From NCBI RefSeq assembly GCF_016464425.1, contig NZ_JADDKQ010000002.1:1-64000 (forward strand): a stretch of DNA of 64,000 nucleotides, written 5' to 3'. The DNA is from Actinotalea solisilvae. GTDB taxonomy: Bacteria > Actinomycetota > Actinomycetes > Actinomycetales > Cellulomonadaceae. This document shows, piece after piece, positions 43,839 through 52,751 of this stretch. Every line of letters starts with the position of its first letter. Position 1 is the stretch's first letter. Under the pieces are notes generated by a model. The model saw nothing but the letters and a program-made list of their open reading frames with translations. It was not told the origin of the DNA and searched no databases. The position numbers and the translations under genes are program-made.

Positions 43839-44990
43839 ATGACGGCAGACGACCGCGCCACGGTCGAGCTCGCGTGGACCCCCGAGCAGGCGGACTACGT
43901 CGACGCCTACCGGGCCCGCGACCGCGCCGACCGCAGGCTGAGGGCCTTCACCCTCCTCGGCGGCGCCGTGGTGGTCGCGTGCGTGGCGGCCGCGCTCTCC
44001 GGCACCCCCGACCTCCTGCCGCTCGCGGCGGGCGTGGGCGTCGGGGTGCTGGCCGCGCCCCTCGCCACGCGACACGCGGTGCGCCGCCTGTGGCGGGCCG
44101 GGCTCGCGGGGCGGGGACCGACCCGGGCGCGCGTGGAGCCGGGTGTCGGCATCACCTCGGTGAGCCGCGGTGCGACGACGCAGACGGAGTGGACGCACCT
44201 GACGCGGCTGCTCGAGACGCGACGGTCGTTCGTCCTCACGGTCGGCGGGCAGCGCGTGGGCTACGTCACCGTGCTCCCCAAGCGCGGCCTTCAGGACCCC
44301 GCCGACGTCGACCGCCTCCGCGCGCTGCTCGCGCACGAGACGCGGGCCGCGCGCGACGGCGCCGCGCGGGCCGGCGCCCTCGCCGCCCTCGGGGCGACCG
44401 ACGCGCCGTGGGACGCGCCCGCCGCCCCGGGCCCGGCGTCCCCCTCCGACGCGGTCACGCTGCGCTGGCTCCCCGCGGTCGAGGACTACGTCGAGGCGTT
44501 CGAGGCGCGCTCACGTGCGCGCCGCACCCGTCGCCTCGCCGTGCTGCTCGGCGCCCTGGCTCTCGTCGCCCTCGGGGCGGTGCTCACGCGCGAGCCGGTC
44601 ACCGTGGTCCTCCTGCTCCTCGTGGCCGCGATGGCCGTGCTCGAGCGTCCGATGCTGCGCCGCGCCGTCCGTCGCTCGTGGGGCAAGGAGCCCGCCCTGC
44701 GCGAGGAGAGGATCGCCCGGCTGGCGCCCGACGACGGCCTCGTCGTCGACGCGGGCGCCTCGAGCGGCCGCTACGGGTGGGACCGTGTCGCGCGGGTCGT
44801 CGAGACCGAGCGCTCGTTCGTGCTGCTGAGCGACCGCGCGTGGTCGGGGACGTTCTGGCTGCTCGCCAAGCGGGGTGCGGCCTCCCCCGGCGACGTCGAC
44901 CGGGTGCGGGCGCTCCTCGCCCGGCACGTCGGCTCGGCACCGCCGCGGGTGGGCCAGGTGGGGCTTGAACCCACGACCGACGGATTATGA
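43839..44990 (+). CDS. Tandem YcxB-like membrane protein
   Basis: A 383-residue protein built from two similar units. Each has WxPxxxDYVxAxxAR, a double membrane helix, an RRxW motif, a short beta region and LLETRRSFVLTV...LPKRGLQDPADVDRLRALL (first) or VVETERSFVLLS...LAKRGAASPGDVDRVRALL (second). This matches a duplicated YcxB-like domain; function unknown. ATG at 43839 is used; a frame opening at 43692 would add an Arg/Pro-rich stretch without homology. The last 41 bases lie inside the oppositely oriented tRNA gene, so the C-terminal residues GLEPTTDGL are encoded by tRNA sequence. Confidence 0.78.
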   Translation: MTADDRATVELAWTPEQADYVDAYRARDRADRRLRAFTLLGGAVVVACVAAALSGTPDLLPLAAGVGVGVLAAPLATRHAVRRLWRAGLAGRGPTRARVEPGVGITSVSRGATTQTEWTHLTRLLETRRSFVLTVGGQRVGYVTVLPKRGLQDPADVDRLRALLAHETRAARDGAARAGALAALGATDAPWDAPAAPGPASPSDAVTLRWLPAVEDYVEAFEARSRARRTRRLAVLLGALALVALGAVLTREPVTVVLLLLVAAMAVLERPMLRRAVRRSWGKEPALREERIARLAPDDGLVVDAGASSGRYGWDRVARVVETERSFVLLSDRAWSGTFWLLAKRGAASPGDVDRVRALLARHVGSAPPRVGQVGLEPTTDGL

Positions 44991-45023
44991 GTCCGCTGCT
45001 CTGACCGGCTGAGCTACTGGCCC
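44950..45023 (-). tRNA. tRNA with CAT anticodon (Ile2 or Met)
   Basis: Minus-strand cloverleaf: acceptor GGGCCAG/CTGGCCC, AGCTCAGCCGGTCAGAGC D arm, anticodon stem GCGGA/TCCGT around CTCATAA, T arm GTGGG-TTCAAGC-CCCAC. The anticodon CAT belongs to elongator Met, or to Ile2 if the C is modified to lysidine by TilS. The body does not let me choose with certainty; it is not an initiator tRNA by its paired acceptor end. The 3' half overlaps the end of the plus-strand YcxB-like gene. Confidence 0.9.
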
Positions 45024-45055
45024 GCGGCGCAAGGCTACGGGACTAGGGTCGCCGG

Positions 45056-45934
45056 GTGCCGCACGTCCTGGTCGCCGGTCCCGCCTCGTGGAACACCCTC
45101 GTCGACGTCGACGCGCTCCCCGAGCCCCACCCCCACACCGTCATGGCGCGCGGCCACCGCGACGGCCTCGGCGGCACGTCCGCGGGCAAGGCGCTCACGC
45201 TCGCCCGCCTGGGCGTCCCGGTCACGCTGCGGACGGCGCTCGGCGACGACGACGGCGCGGACCGCATCGCGGCCGCGCTCGCCCACCCCGGTCTCACGCT
45301 CACCGCCGCGCGCACGCCCGGCCCGAGCGAGCGCCACCTCAACCTCATGACGCCCGACGGCGGCCGCCTGTCGATCTACCTCGACCTGCCGCCCGACCCC
45401 GGCCCGCCGCCGCCCGCCGTGCTCGAGCTCGCCGCGAGCGCCGACGTCGTCGTGGCCGACCTCGCGGGCCACGTGCGGGACGCGCTGCCGGCCCTCCGTG
45501 CGGTGGCGAGCGAGGTGTGGTGCGACGTCCACGACCACGACGGCGTCGCCGACTTCCACCGGCCGTTCGTCGACGCGGCGGACGTGCTCGTGGTCTCGGC
45601 CGACCGCCTGCCCGACCCTCGCGCGTACCTCGCGGAGCGGGTCGCGGCCGGTGCGCGGTGGGCGGTGTGCACCGCGGGTGCGCGCGGTGCCGTCGCCCTC
45701 GGCCGCGACGAGGGGTGGGTCGAGGTGCCGGCCGTGGCCGACGTCACGGTGGTCGACACCAACGGCGCGGGCGACGCGTTCGTCGCCGGGATGCTGCGCG
45801 GACGTCTCGACGGGCTGCCGCTGGCTACGTGCCTGCGCCTCGGCGCGGCAGCGGGCGCCCTGGCCGTCGCGTCACCGGACCTGGTGGCCGACGTCGACCT
45901 CGACCAGGTCCGTCGCCTGGCCGGGATCGTCTGA
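45056..45934 (+). CDS. PfkB-family carbohydrate/nucleoside kinase
   Basis: A 292-residue ribokinase-fold kinase. It has the N-terminal GGTSAGKALTLARLG motif in place of the usual GGxxxN, and the C-terminal signature VVDTNGAGDAFVAGML with the catalytic aspartate. Substrate could be a sugar or nucleoside and cannot be read from the sequence. TAGGGT (45044-45049) ends six bases before the GTG. It starts 33 bases from the tRNA 5' end, divergently. Confidence 0.87.
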   Translation: MPHVLVAGPASWNTLVDVDALPEPHPHTVMARGHRDGLGGTSAGKALTLARLGVPVTLRTALGDDDGADRIAAALAHPGLTLTAARTPGPSERHLNLMTPDGGRLSIYLDLPPDPGPPPPAVLELAASADVVVADLAGHVRDALPALRAVASEVWCDVHDHDGVADFHRPFVDAADVLVVSADRLPDPRAYLAERVAAGARWAVCTAGARGAVALGRDEGWVEVPAVADVTVVDTNGAGDAFVAGMLRGRLDGLPLATCLRLGAAAGALAVASPDLVADVDLDQVRRLAGIV

Positions 45935-45976
45935 CGCGGCGACGCCGGACGGGCCGGTGCCGGTTACGTTGAGGGC

Positions 45977-46480
45977 ATGGCCCTCCTGCGACGCGCCCCC
46001 CGCCTGCCCGACGACGTCCGCGGCTCCCTCGAGCTGCGGCGCGGCGAGAAGGTGCTCGCGACGGCACCGCTCACCGACGGCTGGGCGGTCGCGACGACGC
46101 TGCACCTGCACGTCGCGGGCGCCGGCGCGCTGCGGCGCGCATGGAGCGACGTCGACGGTGCGCGCCTCGACCCCGAGACCGCCGAGCTGACCGTGACGTG
46201 GGTGGACGGCTCCCCCGCCTCCGTGCTGCACCTCGACGCCGAGCACGCGCGCGTGCTCGCCCGCGCGGTGCACGAGCGCGTCCAGTCCTCGGTCGTGCAC
46301 ACGGCTCGCGTCACGGTCCCCGGCGGCGCCGTCGTGCGCGTGGCCCTGCGCCGGGACGCCGACGGCGGCCTCCTCACCCAGGTGCTCGGCGACGGGCGCG
46401 TGGACCTCAGCGACCCGCGGACGGCCGCCGCCGTCGACGAGGCGGAGGCGAAGGTGCGCGAGGCCGCCGGGCTCGCCTGA
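45977..46480 (+). CDS. Conserved hypothetical protein next to tRNA-Asn
   Basis: A 167-residue all-beta-looking protein (GSLELRRGEKVLATAPLTDGWAVATTLHLHVAGAG, RVALRRDADGGLLTQVLGDGRVDLSDP). It resembles hypothetical proteins that sit just before tRNA-Asn in many actinobacteria; no function known. TACGTT (45965-45970) ends six bases before the ATG. Confidence 0.75.
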   Translation: MALLRRAPRLPDDVRGSLELRRGEKVLATAPLTDGWAVATTLHLHVAGAGALRRAWSDVDGARLDPETAELTVTWVDGSPASVLHLDAEHARVLARAVHERVQSSVVHTARVTVPGGAVVRVALRRDADGGLLTQVLGDGRVDLSDPRTAAAVDEAEAKVREAAGLA

Positions 46481-46595
46481 GCCTCGCGCAGGCCTCCGCG
46501 GCCGGTCCGCGGGTGATCCTTCCGGACACTCCGGGCACCCCCGGCCACCGGTGCCGGTGCACCGCCGAGCATCGGGTAGCATTGCGAACCGCCGA

Positions 46596-46668
<73 letters not shown>

Positions 46669-46862
46669 CACAGCATCTCCGCAGGTCAGGCCCCAGCTCG
46701 ACGGGGCCTTCTGCATGTCCGCCGCCCGCCTCGTCGCCCGCGGCCGATCCGTCAGCCTCGACGACGGGTCAGACGGTCTCCGGGGTGCCCGCGACGCCGC
46801 CCGATCAGATCAGCCGCGACGAACGGTCAGACCTCCTACAACGCCCGAAAGAGGAGAGTCAC

Positions 46863-47705
46863 GTGACCGAGCAGACCGCCAGGACGTCCGAGCAGTCCGT
46901 CACGACGGGGTACGCGCCGGTGAACGGCATGCGGATGTACTACGAGGTGCACGGGGCAGGTGGCACCCCTCTGCTCCTGCTGCACGGCGGACTCTTCGAC
47001 ATCGATCAGCAGTTCGGCGCGCTGCTCCCCCACCTGTCGCACGGCCGGCAGGTGGTCGCCACGGACTTCCAGGGGCACGGCCGCACCGACGACGTCGACC
47101 GCCCGCTGACCGCCGCCGGGCTGGCGTCGGACGTCATCGGCCTGCTCGACCACCTCGGGCTGGCGCAGGTGGACGTCTTCGGCTTCAGCATCGGCGGAGC
47201 GGTCGGGTTGCACCTGGCCATCCGCCACCCCGAGCGCGTGCGGCGGCTCGTGGTCTCGTCCGTCTCGTTCCACCCCGACGGTGACCGCGGCGAGAACACC
47301 GAGGCGGTCGCCGAGATGACCGTCGACATGATCGCCGGCACGCCCATGGAGGCCGCCTACCGCTCGAAGTCACCGCACCCGGACAGGCTGCAGGACCTGC
47401 TGACCAAGCTGAGCCACTTCGACGAGGGCTTCGGCGGCTGGTCGGACGACGACGTCCGCGGGATCTCGGCGCCCACGCTCATCACGGTCGGCGACTGCGA
47501 CATGGTGCGCCTCGAGCACGCGGTGCGGTTCCTCCAGCTGCGCGGTGGGGACGTCAACGGTGACTTCGAGGGAGTCCCGTCCTCCCAGCTCGCGGTCTTC
47601 CCCGGGACGACGCACTTCTTCGGCCTGAGCCGCACCGCCATGGTCGTCGACGCGGTGACGACGTTCCTCGACACCGAGCCGGCACCCGCCACGGTCCCGG
47701 GCTGA
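46863..47705 (+). CDS. Alpha/beta-fold hydrolase
   Basis: A 280-residue hydrolase. The nucleophile S109 lies in VDVFGFSIGGAVGL (G-x-S-x-G), the oxyanion loop in LLLLHGGLFDI, a candidate acid in VGDCDMVRLEH and the catalytic His in PGTTHFFGL near 256. It resembles 3-oxoadipate enol-lactonase and related esterases, but the substrate is unknown. GTG follows AAAGAGGAGAGTCAC, a strong ribosome-binding site. GC is lower than in neighbours. Confidence 0.88.
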   Translation: MTEQTARTSEQSVTTGYAPVNGMRMYYEVHGAGGTPLLLLHGGLFDIDQQFGALLPHLSHGRQVVATDFQGHGRTDDVDRPLTAAGLASDVIGLLDHLGLAQVDVFGFSIGGAVGLHLAIRHPERVRRLVVSSVSFHPDGDRGENTEAVAEMTVDMIAGTPMEAAYRSKSPHPDRLQDLLTKLSHFDEGFGGWSDDDVRGISAPTLITVGDCDMVRLEHAVRFLQLRGGDVNGDFEGVPSSQLAVFPGTTHFFGLSRTAMVVDAVTTFLDTEPAPATVPG

Positions 47706-47901
47706 GTCAGGCACCAGCCGACTCGGGCGTCCACCGGCGAGGCACCGCCCACAGCCGGGCGACCACGAACGCTGCTGGCGGGACACACGCGACTCGCGTC
47801 GGCACGGTCACGCGTCGCCACCCCAGTCCGGTCATGCCGACGACCGGTCGGTCGTCCGGAAGTAGCCCCGCCGCACACCCGCGTCCGCCACCATTGGGCT
47901 C
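47706..47901. other. Intergenic region with diverged repeat copy
   Basis: No gene supported. At 47829-47846 it holds CGGTCATGCCGACGACCG, a two-mismatch version of the 18-base hairpin repeated three times downstream. Confidence 0.5.
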
Positions 47902-48735
47902 ATGGCAGTGACCGAAGGTCAGTACTCGATCGACCCGGGCGCGGTGGCAGAGCTGGTTGAGGCGTTCTGGGGGCCGAACGGCTGGCGAGTCGGCGCGGGT
48001 GGCCTCACCGCGCTCCCGCGGAAGGCACTCGACGCGGGCCTCCTCTTTGCCGGACCTCGCCGGCTCGACCACGACGGGTGGATAGCAGCCGCCCATGCCT
48101 TGCGGGATCGGGTGCGCCTCGAGGACGTATCGAACGCCTTTGTGGCGAGCCTCGGTGCGGGCCGGCGTGACCTACGGTCCGCGATCTCCTCGTGGTTCCT
48201 TCTCGCGCAGCTGCCCGAGCATGCGCCTGACCCGTGGGACGGCGGCTGCACTTGCGGCATCTGCGGTCTGCCACTGACAGACGAGGAGATCGACCTGAAC
48301 GTCATGAGCTTCGAGCGGTTCCAGTGGGGGGGCGTCCGACACGACGAGGTCCAGTATGCGACTTTCGACCTCGAGATGTTCCTGCGTGCGCCGCGCGCTG
48401 ACCTCGACTCGCGCGCCGTCGAACTGGGGCGGTCACTGATACAGCGCCTCCGCAGCGCGCCAGCAAATGCCACCGTGACGTCCCTGTCACGCTCTGCGGG
48501 CCTACCCGAGAGCAATGCCGCACGTAGGGAGTCGCTCCTAGCCGTGCTTGGCGTCTGCGGAGTTCTCGCAGCACCCGACCACCCCGGATTCGCGACGACC
48601 TTCGTGCCCTTCCGTGACCGCCAGGACCGTCCGACGGGCCGGAGCGACGTCCCCTACCCGGCGTGTTGGTGGCGAGGTGAGTTCGGTATCGACGAGACAG
48701 TGGCCGCGCGACTCCTGCCCCTCATAGCGGGCTGA
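47902..48735 (+). CDS. Orphan hypothetical protein A (accessory)
   Basis: A 277-residue protein with no family that I recognise. It carries a possible metal knuckle GGCTCGICGLPLTDEEIDLN at about 113-132 and a helical C-terminal part with a winged-helix-like feel (ANATVTSLSRSAGLPESNAARRESLLAVLGVCGVL). Codon use is less GC-biased than in core genes; samples count about 67-68% GC. It stands between a diverged copy of the 18-base repeat and an exact copy 30 bases after its stop. Confidence 0.7.
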   Translation: MAVTEGQYSIDPGAVAELVEAFWGPNGWRVGAGGLTALPRKALDAGLLFAGPRRLDHDGWIAAAHALRDRVRLEDVSNAFVASLGAGRRDLRSAISSWFLLAQLPEHAPDPWDGGCTCGICGLPLTDEEIDLNVMSFERFQWGGVRHDEVQYATFDLEMFLRAPRADLDSRAVELGRSLIQRLRSAPANATVTSLSRSAGLPESNAARRESLLAVLGVCGVLAAPDHPGFATTFVPFRDRQDRPTGRSDVPYPACWWRGEFGIDETVAARLLPLIAG

Positions 48736-48765
48736 ACCCAGCAGCGTCCTCGATCGAGCCCTGCA

Positions 48766-48783
48766 CGGTCATGCCGCTGACCG
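48766..48783. repeat. 18-base hairpin repeat, exact copy 1
   Basis: CGGTCATGCCGCTGACCG: arms CGGTCA and TGACCG, six-base loop. It lies 30 bases after gene A and three bases beyond the stop of gene B on the other strand. Identical copies are at 49621 and 50148. Confidence 0.85.
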
Positions 48784-48786
48784 GTC

Positions 48787-49569
48787 TCACGCGCGCACCC
48801 ACACGCCTGGGGGCCGGATCGGCTCCGGGTAGTACTCGACGTGCCAGGTCTCACCCAAGCTCGTCTGCACGCGCTGCGCTAGGTCCCGGCCCCTGTCGAC
48901 GAAACGTTCGGCGTCGGGGATCGACGCAAAGCCGCGTGCGCTCTGCACCTCATGCCAGTGAGCGCTCCATCGGTCTAGGTCGGCGGTCAGTTCCGCCGGC
49001 AGGTGCAGCACTCCCACGTCGATTGGGACGTAGCCGCCGGTGGTTGATCGGGACAGCGGGCGGTCTGGCGCTGCTTGCACGCGCAGCCATTGCCGTGGCT
49101 TCGCTCGGGCCAGGAGCGCTGCAGCCTCACGGACGATCTCCGTCCCGTAGTACTGCGCGTGCTCTGGGTGGTCCTCGAGCTCAGAGGCGAGGGCGACGAA
49201 GACGCGCAAGTCCCCCTCGGGCTCGGCCCGAGACTCAGCCTCGCGCCACAGCCATGCGGCGCCGCGGCCGGGCTCGATGGTGCCGTCGACGATCTGACGG
49301 GCTGTGAGTCGCACAAGGTGCCACAACGCGGTCTGCTCGTCAGGATTCTCCAGGCCTTGCTCGAGCACGACTTCCTCGAACAGGTCACGCACGTCCTGGC
49401 TATTGCGCCGGTCGGCACCCGCCAGCTCGGCCAGAGCCGAGCCGCCGAGACCGGCCACCAAGCCATCGACGGCCAACCCGACCAGGTCTGGCTCTGGGCG
49501 GATCCCCGCTCGCGAACGCCACAAGGCGATCCTCAGCTGATCAAGCACCGCTGCCCGTGTGATCGTCAC
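48787..49569 (-). CDS. Orphan hypothetical protein B (accessory)
   Basis: A 260-residue, mainly helical protein (AAVLDQLRIALWRSRAGIRPEPDLVGLAVDGLVAGLG, then a Trp-rich C terminus WHVEYYPEPIRPPGVWVRA). No recognised domain, signal peptide or membrane segment. A 60-base sample (49321-49380) has 60% GC, well below the core genes. Its stop is three bases from repeat copy 1 and its start 51 bases from copy 2. Confidence 0.7.
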   Translation of the reverse strand: MTITRAAVLDQLRIALWRSRAGIRPEPDLVGLAVDGLVAGLGGSALAELAGADRRNSQDVRDLFEEVVLEQGLENPDEQTALWHLVRLTARQIVDGTIEPGRGAAWLWREAESRAEPEGDLRVFVALASELEDHPEHAQYYGTEIVREAAALLARAKPRQWLRVQAAPDRPLSRSTTGGYVPIDVGVLHLPAELTADLDRWSAHWHEVQSARGFASIPDAERFVDRGRDLAQRVQTSLGETWHVEYYPEPIRPPGVWVRA

Positions 49570-49620
49570 CGCACCATTGTCGGCGCAGCCAGCGCCCGAC
49601 GACCGCGCCCACAGACTGTC

Positions 49621-49638
49621 CGGTCATGCCGCTGACCG
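49621..49638. repeat. 18-base hairpin repeat, exact copy 2
   Basis: Identical to the copies at 48766 and 50148, same orientation. It lies five bases beyond the stop of gene C (minus strand) and 51 bases before the start of gene B. Confidence 0.85.
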
Positions 49639-49643
49639 CGCTG

Positions 49644-50039
49644 TCATCCCGAAGGCTCGCTCGCGGGCGGGACCTGTCCTTCTTGGGAGCGCCGCAGCCA
49701 GAACGGCTTCGTAGGGAACCGGCGATCCACCGGCCCATTGCCCGGGTACGAGCCGTTCTCGTAGGCGTCCAGACGCTGTATTGGACGGCGAAGACCCGCT
49801 CTGTGGAGCTGATCGCGGAGGTTCCAGTGATCCGGCTTCTCAGCCGGATCGAACCACGGCGTGCCTGCTACCACCCATTCGATCAAGTACCCGAGCGCCG
49901 TCCGCGTCGGGTGGTCGTCCAAACCCGACTCTGCGCCGCAGCACGAGCAGATGATGTACATCGGCTGCCCGCCGTCCCAGCCGCCGCCGATGTCAAAGCC
50001 ACAGACCCGGCATGCGTCATCGAAGGGCGGAACGGACAC
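49644..50039 (-). CDS. Zinc-ribbon hypothetical protein C (accessory)
   Basis: A 131-residue protein with two cysteine pairs, CRVCG near residue 9 and CSCCG near residue 31, forming a zinc ribbon. LGYLIEWVVAGTPWFDPAEKPDHWNLRDQLHRAG follows. This pattern resembles a broad bacterial family of small CPxCG...CPCCG proteins of unknown function. GTG at 50039 is chosen because GGGAGG stands eight bases upstream; an open frame to 50132 lacks such a site. Its stop is five bases from repeat copy 2. Confidence 0.75.
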   Translation of the reverse strand: MSVPPFDDACRVCGFDIGGGWDGGQPMYIICSCCGAESGLDDHPTRTALGYLIEWVVAGTPWFDPAEKPDHWNLRDQLHRAGLRRPIQRLDAYENGSYPGNGPVDRRFPTKPFWLRRSQEGQVPPASEPSG

Positions 50040-50147
50040 CGCTGGCCTCCCTTCAGCACGGGCTGCGCCGAAGGTGGACTGGACGACCACGGCGGACCGA
50101 CACGACGCTACTCCCCATCCATCTGTGCTCACTCGCCCGCGACCGCA

Positions 50148-50165
50148 CGGTCATGCCGCTGACCG
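50148..50165. repeat. 18-base hairpin repeat, exact copy 3
   Basis: Third exact copy. It lies 108 bases before the start of gene C and 61 bases beyond the stop of the GH43-like gene. Copies 1 and 3 also share the three bases GCA on the left side. Confidence 0.85.
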
Positions 50166-50226
50166 ACTCCGACGAGCTCATCGACGGCACGCTGTGCAGG
50201 ATCGGCAGCGGGGACGTGCCCCTTGG

Positions 50227-51240
50227 TCAGGGGACGGGAGCCTCGCGCTCGGGCGTGGTGCGGGTCGGTGGGCCGAACGCCGCGGCGAGCCGGTGCCACT
50301 CGTCGCCTCGCAGCGGCAGGACGCCCCCGTGCTTGGTGTCCGGCGGCATGTGGAACCGGTCACGCGGCAGCAGCTCCCACCGCCCCGTCGCGAGGTCCGT
50401 CGTGCGGAAGCCCTGGTAGCCCTGGGGGCGCCGGTCGTACTGGTCGAGGAACAGGTACCAGGCGTCCTCACCGTGGGCCCGGAACAGCACGGGGCCCTCG
50501 AGCCGCTCGTACGCGTCCGCGCCGATCCGTGTCGCGACGGTGCGGAACGCGTCGGACAGCAGGGACGGCCCCACCTCGTGGAACACCTTGGCCGAGTCGG
50601 CGGCCAGCGACTCCTGCTTCGAGACCCGGTGCACGACGCCGTCCTCGACGAGGATCGTGGTGTCGATGACGTCCTCGCCCCGGTCCACGAGCACATGGGG
50701 CTCCCCGATGCGGCGGAAATCGGTCGTCCACGCCGCCAGGACGCGGCTGTAGGCGTCGCCCGCGTGCTCGACGTCGTCCTCGGCGTACAGCTTCGACGAC
50801 CAGTACAGGAGGAACTCCCCGCGCTCGGCGTCGTAGAGCGCCTCGGGCGCCCAGGCCATGCCCGCCGTCGGCGGCGCGACCTCGAGCAGCCACGGCTCGG
50901 ACCACGTGACGAGGTCCGTCGACTGCCACACGAGGATGCTGCGGCTGCCCCTCCGCGTCCACGCGTCCCAGCCGGCGTCGTCCCCGCCGTAGATGCGCAG
51001 GTCCGTCGCAACGAGGAAGAACTCGCCGTCACCCCGCACGACGAACGGGTCCCGCACGCCGGTCGTCCCGAGGCCCGACCGCAGCACGGGCTGCCCGCCG
51101 TTCAGCCGGACGAACGCGCATGGGTCGTCCCCGTCGCTGAGGGAGTAGTACACCTGCTCGCCGTACCCGTCCGGGTCCTCGACGAAGTGCACGAGGAGGT
51201 AGCCGAACGGCTCGTCCCCGACCCCCGGCCGGCCGGTCAT
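50227..51240 (-). CDS. GH43-like glycoside hydrolase (arabinosidase/xylosidase)
   Basis: A 337-residue five-bladed beta-propeller enzyme. D64 in GVRDPFVVRG is the expected general base, E133 in AWAPEALYD a conserved propeller residue and the Asp in VIDTTILVEDG the likely pKa modulator. No signal peptide, so it acts in the cytoplasm on imported oligosaccharides, probably releasing arabinose or xylose. The ATG overlaps the stop of the GH51 gene (ATGA). Last gene of the arabinan operon. Confidence 0.85.
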   Translation of the reverse strand: MTGRPGVGDEPFGYLLVHFVEDPDGYGEQVYYSLSDGDDPCAFVRLNGGQPVLRSGLGTTGVRDPFVVRGDGEFFLVATDLRIYGGDDAGWDAWTRRGSRSILVWQSTDLVTWSEPWLLEVAPPTAGMAWAPEALYDAERGEFLLYWSSKLYAEDDVEHAGDAYSRVLAAWTTDFRRIGEPHVLVDRGEDVIDTTILVEDGVVHRVSKQESLAADSAKVFHEVGPSLLSDAFRTVATRIGADAYERLEGPVLFRAHGEDAWYLFLDQYDRRPQGYQGFRTTDLATGRWELLPRDRFHMPPDTKHGGVLPLRGDEWHRLAAAFGPPTRTTPEREAPVP

Positions 51241-52751
51241 GCGCGGGCGACCTGCAAGAGCACCATCGTCCAGGACGCCGGCGGCAGCGTGAGGCGCAGC
51301 GCGGCGCCCTCGACGGACGCCCCGGTGTGAGCGCGCGGCGCCACCCGGTCGGGGTCCTCCTGGGTGTTCGCCGCAGCGAGGTCCTCGCCCCCGAGGAGCG
51401 TCGCCTCGACGAGGCTGACGTCGCCGAACGTGCGCAGGTCCGTCGAGACCTCGACGGGCGCGTCGGGGTCGCGGTTGACCACGAAGACGGCGAGCCGCCC
51501 GTCCTCGGCGTCGTAGGTGGCGACGGAGTCGAGCGTCGGGACGTCGCCGTACCGCGCGGTCGCGAGCGTCGGGCCGTCGACCCGGAGGTCGAGCACGGTC
51601 CCCCGCGCGTGGCGGGCCATGAGCGCGAACGGGTGGAAGATCGACTGCCGCCACGCGGGTCCGCCCGGCTCGGCCCGGATCGGGCTGATCGTGTTGACGA
51701 GCTGCGCCTGGCACGCAGCGGTCACGCGGTCGGCGTGGCGCAGCAGCGTGATGAGCAGCGAGCCGACGACGACGGCGTCGAGCGCCGTGTAGGCGTCCTC
51801 GCTGAGGCGGGGCGCCGTGGTCCAGTCGTCCGGCATCCCGCTCGCCTGCAGGTCCTTGAGGTACCAGACGTTCCACTCGTCGAACGAGATGTTGATCCGC
51901 TTGGACGAGGACAGCCGCGCGCCGACGTGGTCCGCCGTCGCGACCACCTCGCGGATGAACCGGTCCATGTCGACCGACGAGGCGAGGAAGCTCGCGCGGT
52001 CGTCGCCCTCGAGCTCGTAGTACGCGTGGGCCGAGACGAGGTCGACGACGTCGTAGGTGTGCTCGAGGACGGTCGCCTCCCACGCGCCGAACGTCGGCAT
52101 CTGGCGCCCCGAGCTGCCGCACGCGACGAGCTCGAGGCCGGCGTCGAACTGGCGCATGGCGCGCGCCGTCTCCGCGGCGAGGCGCCCGTACTCCTCGGCG
52201 GTCTTGTGGCCGAGCTGCCACGGCCCGTCCATCTCGTTGCCCAGGCACCACATCCGGATGCCGTGCGGCTCCTTGGCCCCGTGCTCGATGCGGGCGTCCG
52301 ACAGCGCGGTGCCCTGGGGGTGGTTGGCGTACTCGAGCAGGTCGATGGCCTCCTGCATGCCGCGGGTGCCGAGGTTCATCGCCATGATCGGCTCGATGTC
52401 GGCCTTCGCCGCCCACGCCATGAACTCGTTGAGCCCGAACTCGTTCGTCTCGATCGTGCGCCACGCGGGGTCGAGCCGGGTCGGCCGGTCCTCGACCGGG
52501 CCCACGCCGTCCTCCCAGCGGTACCCGGAGACGAAGTTGCCGCCCGGGTAGCGGACCGCGGTCACGCCGAGCTCGCGGACCAGGTCGAGGACGTCCCCGC
52601 GGAAGCCGTCGTCGTCGGACGTCGGGTGCCCGGGCTCGTAGATCCCGCCGTACACGCACCGGCCCATGTGCTCGACGAACGAGCCGAAGACCCGGCGGTT
52701 CACGGGCGCCACGGTGAACGCGGGGTCGATCGACAGCCTGCCGTTGTGCAT
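51237..52751 (-). CDS. Alpha-L-arabinofuranosidase, GH51
   Basis: A 504-residue GH51 enzyme that releases arabinose from arabinan or arabinoxylan fragments with retention of configuration. The acid/base is E173 (WCLGNEMDGPW) and the nucleophile E292 (ISFDEWNVWY). Further signatures are GSFVEHMGRCVYGGIYEPGH and RYPGGNFVSGYRWEDGVG. No signal peptide, so cytoplasmic. It lies after the binding-protein gene behind a strong hairpin and is coupled to the GH43 gene. Confidence 0.95.
   Translation of the reverse strand: MHNGRLSIDPAFTVAPVNRRVFGSFVEHMGRCVYGGIYEPGHPTSDDDGFRGDVLDLVRELGVTAVRYPGGNFVSGYRWEDGVGPVEDRPTRLDPAWRTIETNEFGLNEFMAWAAKADIEPIMAMNLGTRGMQEAIDLLEYANHPQGTALSDARIEHGAKEPHGIRMWCLGNEMDGPWQLGHKTAEEYGRLAAETARAMRQFDAGLELVACGSSGRQMPTFGAWEATVLEHTYDVVDLVSAHAYYELEGDDRASFLASSVDMDRFIREVVATADHVGARLSSSKRINISFDEWNVWYLKDLQASGMPDDWTTAPRLSEDAYTALDAVVVGSLLITLLRHADRVTAACQAQLVNTISPIRAEPGGPAWRQSIFHPFALMARHARGTVLDLRVDGPTLATARYGDVPTLDSVATYDAEDGRLAVFVVNRDPDAPVEVSTDLRTFGDVSLVEATLLGGEDLAAANTQEDPDRVAPRAHTGASVEGAALRLTLPPASWTMVLLQVARA

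Follow-up and report, generated by a model that had tools for sequence, protein, structure and literature searches.

Integrons are the classic machine for gene capture and stockpiling, and their known forms (sedentary chromosomal integrons, superintegrons, and CALIN) combine a tyrosine integrase, a head site beside it, and polar arrays of accessory genes with a site after each gene, including very large arrays and clusters without an integrase. Acinetobacter dif modules (pdif) are likewise accessory genes bounded by short tyrosine-recombinase sites, with host XerCD as the recombinase, and tyrosine integrases are also encoded by actinophages such as Arthrobacter phage Isolde (gene 36). No clear explanation exists for the rarity of integrons in Actinobacteria (PMC9024848), a review counts Actinobacteriota among the phyla with detected integrons (PMC8618304), and the IntI-specific insertion in the catalytic domain is described as essential (PMC8138268).

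The locus compared here lies in a stretch of 64,000 bases (the window) on a contig of 190,645 bases, from an assembly listed as 8.17% contaminated. The earlier note, made from the letters alone, had reported three exact copies and one two-mismatch copy of an 18-mer in one orientation, and a search against shuffled sequence confirmed these at 48766, 49621, and 50148 (exact) and at 47829 (two mismatches), all on the plus strand; at up to three mismatches, 4 matches were found in the window vs 0.46 expected, and 0 of 100 shuffles reached 4. The copy at the left end (47829–47846, CGGTCATGCCGACGACCG) has A at core position 12 and was assigned as a head-type site by the repeat search and the A-type-first statistic given below, and the other three are C-type cassette sites, namely site 1 (48766–48783, CGGTCATGCCGCTGACCG), site 2 (49621–49638), and site 3 (50148–50165), the right end of the array. 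The open reading frames bear out one plausible gene of unassigned function per interval, gene A (47902–48735, plus strand, 277 aa), gene B (48787–49569, minus strand, 260 aa), and gene C (49644–50132, minus strand, 162 aa, cysteine-containing), none of which matched a family in Pfam or PADLOC. The stops of genes B and C, placed 3–5 bases from a repeat by the note, were measured at 3 bases (48787 vs 48783) and 5 bases (49644 vs 49638), and the interval is GC-poor as described there (68.4% for 47829–50165 vs 74.8% for the whole window, with 3.2% of 2337-base segments taken every 50 bases being lower; 80% at 45181–45240). A promoter scan of 47500–50500, covering the sigma-70 type only, gave no match. 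A tRNA-Asn gene is located at 46596–46669, 1.2 kb upstream of the head site, and in the congener G009 a transposase-like gene, recognised by eye, follows the same tRNA-Asn.

We read genes A, B, and C as mobile gene cassettes in a short polar array, brought together by integron-like recombination at the shared sites, and from sequence comparison assign this reading a probability of roughly 0.8. The proposed units are cassette A (47847–48783, gene A with site 1), cassette B (48784–49638, antiparallel gene B with site 2), and cassette C (49639–50165, antiparallel gene C with site 3), all on the plus strand, with edges set at the right end of each 18-mer, from which the crossover position may differ. 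The recombination site that closes each cassette would have the core CGGTCATGCCGC, and a variant head site, whose core has A as its last base, would open the array. Relatives encode a tyrosine recombinase of about 310–330 aa amid sites of this kind and on the same strand as them, in many cases with a head-type site shortly downstream of the integrase stop. This integrase would recombine the site carried by a circular cassette with one of the array sites, giving insertion in a fixed orientation, and recombination between two array sites would excise a cassette. The site arrays, the strand rule, the head polarity, the integrase linkage, the cassette-sized duplications at cores, and the homologous cassettes across families are read directly from the letters, and we infer from them the excision and integration of cassettes, the action of the integrase family described below (P0001) on these sites, the circular intermediates, and the exact crossover position.

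The source genome (4,296,322 bases, 41 contigs) has three exact copies of the 18-mer, every one of them in the window array, and not hundreds. At up to two mismatches, 9 places were found vs 2 for the pattern read backwards, and two of these (C28:120001 and 120585) flank a single small gene, so they mark a second one-cassette site. This C28 unit (120001–120602; L010:7002–7603) carries a 150-aa gene on the minus strand, and both of its junctions resemble hybrids of CGCTCA/TGAGCG and CGGTCA/TGACCG sites; matching of cassette ends as a general rule was set aside, since among the junctions read it was striking in C28 (a CGCTCA/TGAGCG circle in a CGGTCA/TGACCG site) and did not look general. Among 199 genomes including the source genome, the exact 18-mer was found in one other, G009, in 9 copies on 5 contigs, and at up to two mismatches these contigs have three to six copies each, on one strand. 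No match to A-B-C was found in the fetched stretches of relatives; with the exact 18-mer restricted to one place in the genome and the three genes not kept in position among the relatives compared, the note's reading as a cassette array whose units share a recombination element, without a visible integrase, is supported. Fetched stretches of G007, G009, G002, and G018 match the tRNA-Asn side of the array, and one of Cellulomonas carbonis (G011, of the same genus group as the source genome) matches the GH43 side; since these flanks are not jointly syntenic, no clean empty site for the window array was found among them, and no strain-level gain or loss was seen in the array itself. Proteins A and C had no homologue among the array and relative loci fetched for comparison.

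A site model built from 55 hand-picked copies was run over 221 genomes of the family and, at E 0.01, matched 162 of them, most with one to three matches, which may be chance; G009 (22 matches), C. aerilata (G047, 17), G001 (16), and G090 (9) stood out. In these genomes and some others the sites form same-strand clusters, with one opposite-strand outlier in G001, and same-strand arrays extend from several genomes of Cellulomonas to further families of the order. Array intervals are mostly about 0.3–2 kb (G009), some with several genes, and the genes do not all point the same way. Across about 85,000 species, a pattern scan returned at least 119 stretches, the 80 listed being mostly single matches in unrelated bacteria, and among the matches listed only the Cellulomonas records were informative. 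Pfam was run on the three window proteins and on 177 of the 247 predicted ORFs, a by-eye selection that also took in genes next to arrays; GNAT, DUF, Arr, and TIR proteins are encoded by ORFs within arrays or near them (among the best 25 of 67 and the best 25 of 91 families). In G009, a gene matching rifampin ADP-ribosyltransferase (Arr) is located directly after a site (L027:3339–3749).

Most arrays open with a site that has A at core position 12, and their later sites have C there. The examined loci hold 30 arrays, 23 of them with an A-type site, which comes first in 16 of the 23 vs 8.05 expected (1 of 5000 shuffles as high) and breaks the rule in 7; the loci that suggested the rule also served to test it, hence this is no independent test. 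Two arrays in G001 share the first 38 bases after the head site (L074:391–522; C14, head at about 160039) and an equal 114-bp distance to the next site, and this post-head unit, a candidate extended head site, contains short direct and inverted repeats and no evident gene. A search by tblastx for a common gene upstream of head sites was discarded, composition noise having swamped the signal.

G332, from another family and assembled as a single contig, has 135 occurrences of the core CGGTCATCCCGC within one mismatch in its first 256 kb. The 132 cores at 39–224 kb are all on the minus strand below 88 kb (67 of 67) and all on the plus strand above it (65 of 65), forming two divergent arrays, and this region contains one intact and two broken integrase copies. 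Duplicated segments were compared after dropping those shorter than 250 bp, outside 39–224 kb, or overlapping the integrase copies, and in the 23 remaining pairs cores coincide with 37 of the 92 ends, where 2.3 would be expected and 2000 random placements gave at most 9; in five pairs this holds for all four ends, three of these five being comparisons among one set of three copies. At C1:42221–42337, 206158–206216, and other places, the arrays contain runs of 29-bp units with little beyond the site itself, possibly empty minimal cassettes or a source of new ones.

Cassette-like differences are also seen between relatives. In G018 and G005, 92% homology begins 6 bases before a site, each genome has its own site set, and BLASTN gave no match between the 7–8 kb fetched upstream of that site; a 452-bp block is located in a different place in G018 vs G005. 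Two related cassettes in G009 are in different contexts, with flanks that by eye diverge at the core. The ends of homology spread from about -8 to +21 around the core and fix no single crossover point. Protein B has matches in 9 of 396 genomes of the order, the source genome included, and its homologues in other families of the order lie between same-type sites. At 7 of 10 non-self loci, cores within one mismatch flank the homologue on both sides (six closely, L422 at a larger distance; 5 of 10 by exact cores), and 3 of 10 are not flanked. Exact cores number 22 in 32 kb at these loci vs 2 in a 353-kb control, and cores within one mismatch 39 vs 46, the control consisting of chosen flanks beside arrays but outside them, already seen to be site-poor, so that the density contrast looks somewhat too favourable. 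Like gene B in the window, the closest homologue (51%, L418) is antiparallel to its sites.

A tyrosine recombinase near such repeats, for which the earlier note had advised a search, was found in relatives but is absent from the source genome. In one batch of the Pfam scan there were two Phage_integrase matches among the families listed, of which the one at L303:11028–12167 is a different integrase; the other, P0001, is a 330-aa protein of C. marina (G223) with an open frame that begins at a C-type site. That contig has two further integrase copies, a partial one whose end lies just short of an A-type site and another that likewise begins at a C-type site. P0001 contains the expected catalytic set, R182, K208, H272, R275, H298, and Y307, residues which we take to have catalytic roles. 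At E 1e-25, P0001 matched 10 of 221 genomes of the family, 6 of them at 70% identity or more, and the source genome had no member; at E 1e-40 it matched 22 of 396 sampled genomes of the order, with members of about 70–83% identity in several families, and at E 1e-60 it matched 8 of 396 genomes of the phylum, all 43–55% identical. Several integrase copies are broken, and decayed integrases were seen at L325:467–1408, L300:3208–3969, and L327:10287–10511. The G112 integrase has Cys at the expected position of the catalytic tyrosine, and in G017 one copy is without an internal stretch and another is a C-terminal piece only.

At 22 loci of the P0001 family (339 kb), 67 model sites were found on the strand of the integrase and 0 on the opposite strand, 3 of the 22 loci having no site; the 353-kb control, with the same flattering choice of flanks, has 3 model sites. 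Eleven stretches around more distant integrases (about 32–54% identity, one of them flank only) contain 1 site in 167 kb, and a search for other repeats around these integrases gave nothing convincing. In the 40 nt that follow the integrase stop, 6 of 22 copies have the head octamer TGCCGATG exactly and 10 of 22 have it within one mismatch, vs 0.27% and 3.4%, respectively, of random 40-mers from the same loci; the remaining 12 copies have no octamer within one mismatch near the stop. These are the 22 copies with a readable stop, from 21 loci (one with two copies), and are not the same 22 as in the strand count. In a tree of 29 proteins, built with broken or partial integrases left out by choice and with no IntI included, 13 P0001-family integrases group with support of 100/100, including two whose loci gave no site; the nearest neighbours of this clade are one phage and two bacterial integrases (support 87/73), and proteins labelled XerC/XerD by resemblance stand apart from it. 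Isolde gene 36, at 48% identity to P0001 over 88% of the query, is among the closest matches found outside the family; it differs in belonging to a phage genome, and comparably distant bacterial relatives lie in the site-poor stretches above.

Many array-bearing genomes, like the source genome, have no member of the P0001 family at E 1e-25, and a recombinase beside the source-genome or G009 arrays was sought and rejected, a motif scan of 20 loci at these arrays giving nothing but an ICE-type integrase on contig C80, about 28 kb away from the G009 array there. Since the source genome has no P0001-family integrase, the window array was probably either built by an integrase acting in trans or left behind when the integrase was lost. 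It is improbable that the sites are instead substrates of host XerC/XerD (or of a phage or ICE integrase), in a dif-module-like arrangement with the P0001 integrase as cargo. That explanation would suit the source genome, G009, G001, G011, G005, and G018, which are without a P0001 member at that threshold and have other tyrosine recombinases, some resembling XerC and XerD, and it would suit C. marina, where one full and one partial integrase copy start at a C-type site as cargo might. It is opposed by site direction, which is the same throughout each array (132 of 132 G332 cores and 67 of 67 sites at integrase loci keep the strand of their array or integrase), whereas dif modules use oppositely oriented sites. 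It is further opposed by the one-strand linkage to an integrase with the head octamer often after its stop, by the separation of the P0001 clade, a linked family of its own, from the proteins taken as XerC/D, and by the near-absence of sites around the 11 more distant integrase stretches.

On the integron-integrase model TIGR02249, P0001 scores 58.3 bits vs a cutoff of 265 and three further members 49–60 bits; a classical integron in the genus was also rejected, with 0 of 19 genomes over this cutoff. Aligned with XerD (1a0p), the reference in place of IntI, P0001 has no large insertion, and the R to H distance is 90 residues, features that would tell against the IntI-specific insertion. The earlier note had called the repeat a hairpin, and a 6-bp stem is possible in each of the three exact copies, but its stability is close to that of shuffled sequence (z -0.2 to -1.2) and its arms do not covary in 55 related copies (243 of 500 shuffles reach the score); the conserved feature of the repeat is not a hairpin. 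The conserved G332 site spans about -6 to +22. Of the 135 hits, 132 were kept by position, and with 70 bases upstream and 60 downstream these gave no extended covarying helix or paired structure. Integrons differ from this system in the integrase, which here is not IntI by profile, in the site, which here is an 18–30 bp core without attC-like pairing, in the head-type site, which here follows the 3' end of the integrase, and in having genes in both orientations here.

We regard it as very unlikely that this is a true but divergent integron, with an IntI-derived integrase and strongly shortened attC sites, for although the architecture matches (integrase, adjacent head-type site, polar cassettes, integrase-less clusters) and the GNAT, DUF, Arr, and TIR proteins among the families listed are consistent with it, the integron model falls far short of its cutoff, the XerC/XerD models (118 bits) are also far below theirs, phage integrases match at 48% identity with one among the nearest tree neighbours, and there is no attC fold. 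An equally slight chance is given to the repeats being an intergenic family (a REP-like element or terminator) that serves as hot spots of homologous recombination with no dedicated recombinase, an explanation close to the genome-wide terminator repeat weighed and now set aside from the earlier note, because short, partly palindromic, intergenic repeats next to the stops of B and C would suit it, but the exact copies of the source genome are in a single place, each array keeps one strand, head and cassette types are ordered and linked to one integrase clade, arms do not covary, the only terminator-like pattern (stem and T-run) in 47500–50500 is inside gene A and none is at a site, and Rfam matched only two tRNAs in 44500–52500.

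The system works like an integron but, since the IntI profile and the attC structure are both missing, it is not filed as one. We incline to the view that Actinobacteria have their own, independently evolved integron counterpart, made of a phage-type tyrosine recombinase and short core sites, with platforms up to the superintegron-sized 132-core array pair, cassettes common across families of the order, and integrase-less satellites like that of the window. Such a system is apparently undescribed: no earlier description was found by title or abstract start among the openly licensed PMC papers listed. If true, a different integrase and site would occupy the integron niche in Actinobacteria, a reservoir of mobile genes, so far uncharacterised, would come to light, and there would be a second case for asking what an integron must have, together with a recombinase with very short sites.

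Two further features were seen near the arrays. On a G009 array contig, a large MobF-relaxase-like gene, recognised by eye, accompanies an ICE-type integrase (L023:5416–8757, L261:10822–12186), and this array may ride on a conjugative element. A second repeat type of about 34 bp (L324 upstream of 187, L328 just upstream of 10535, and L068:6700–8760), consisting of CGGATCTGCCGC and a GC-rich spacer, is found in tandem upstream of the G016 integrase; it is joined to the main core in the C. carbonis array, and a related piece precedes the G023 integrase.
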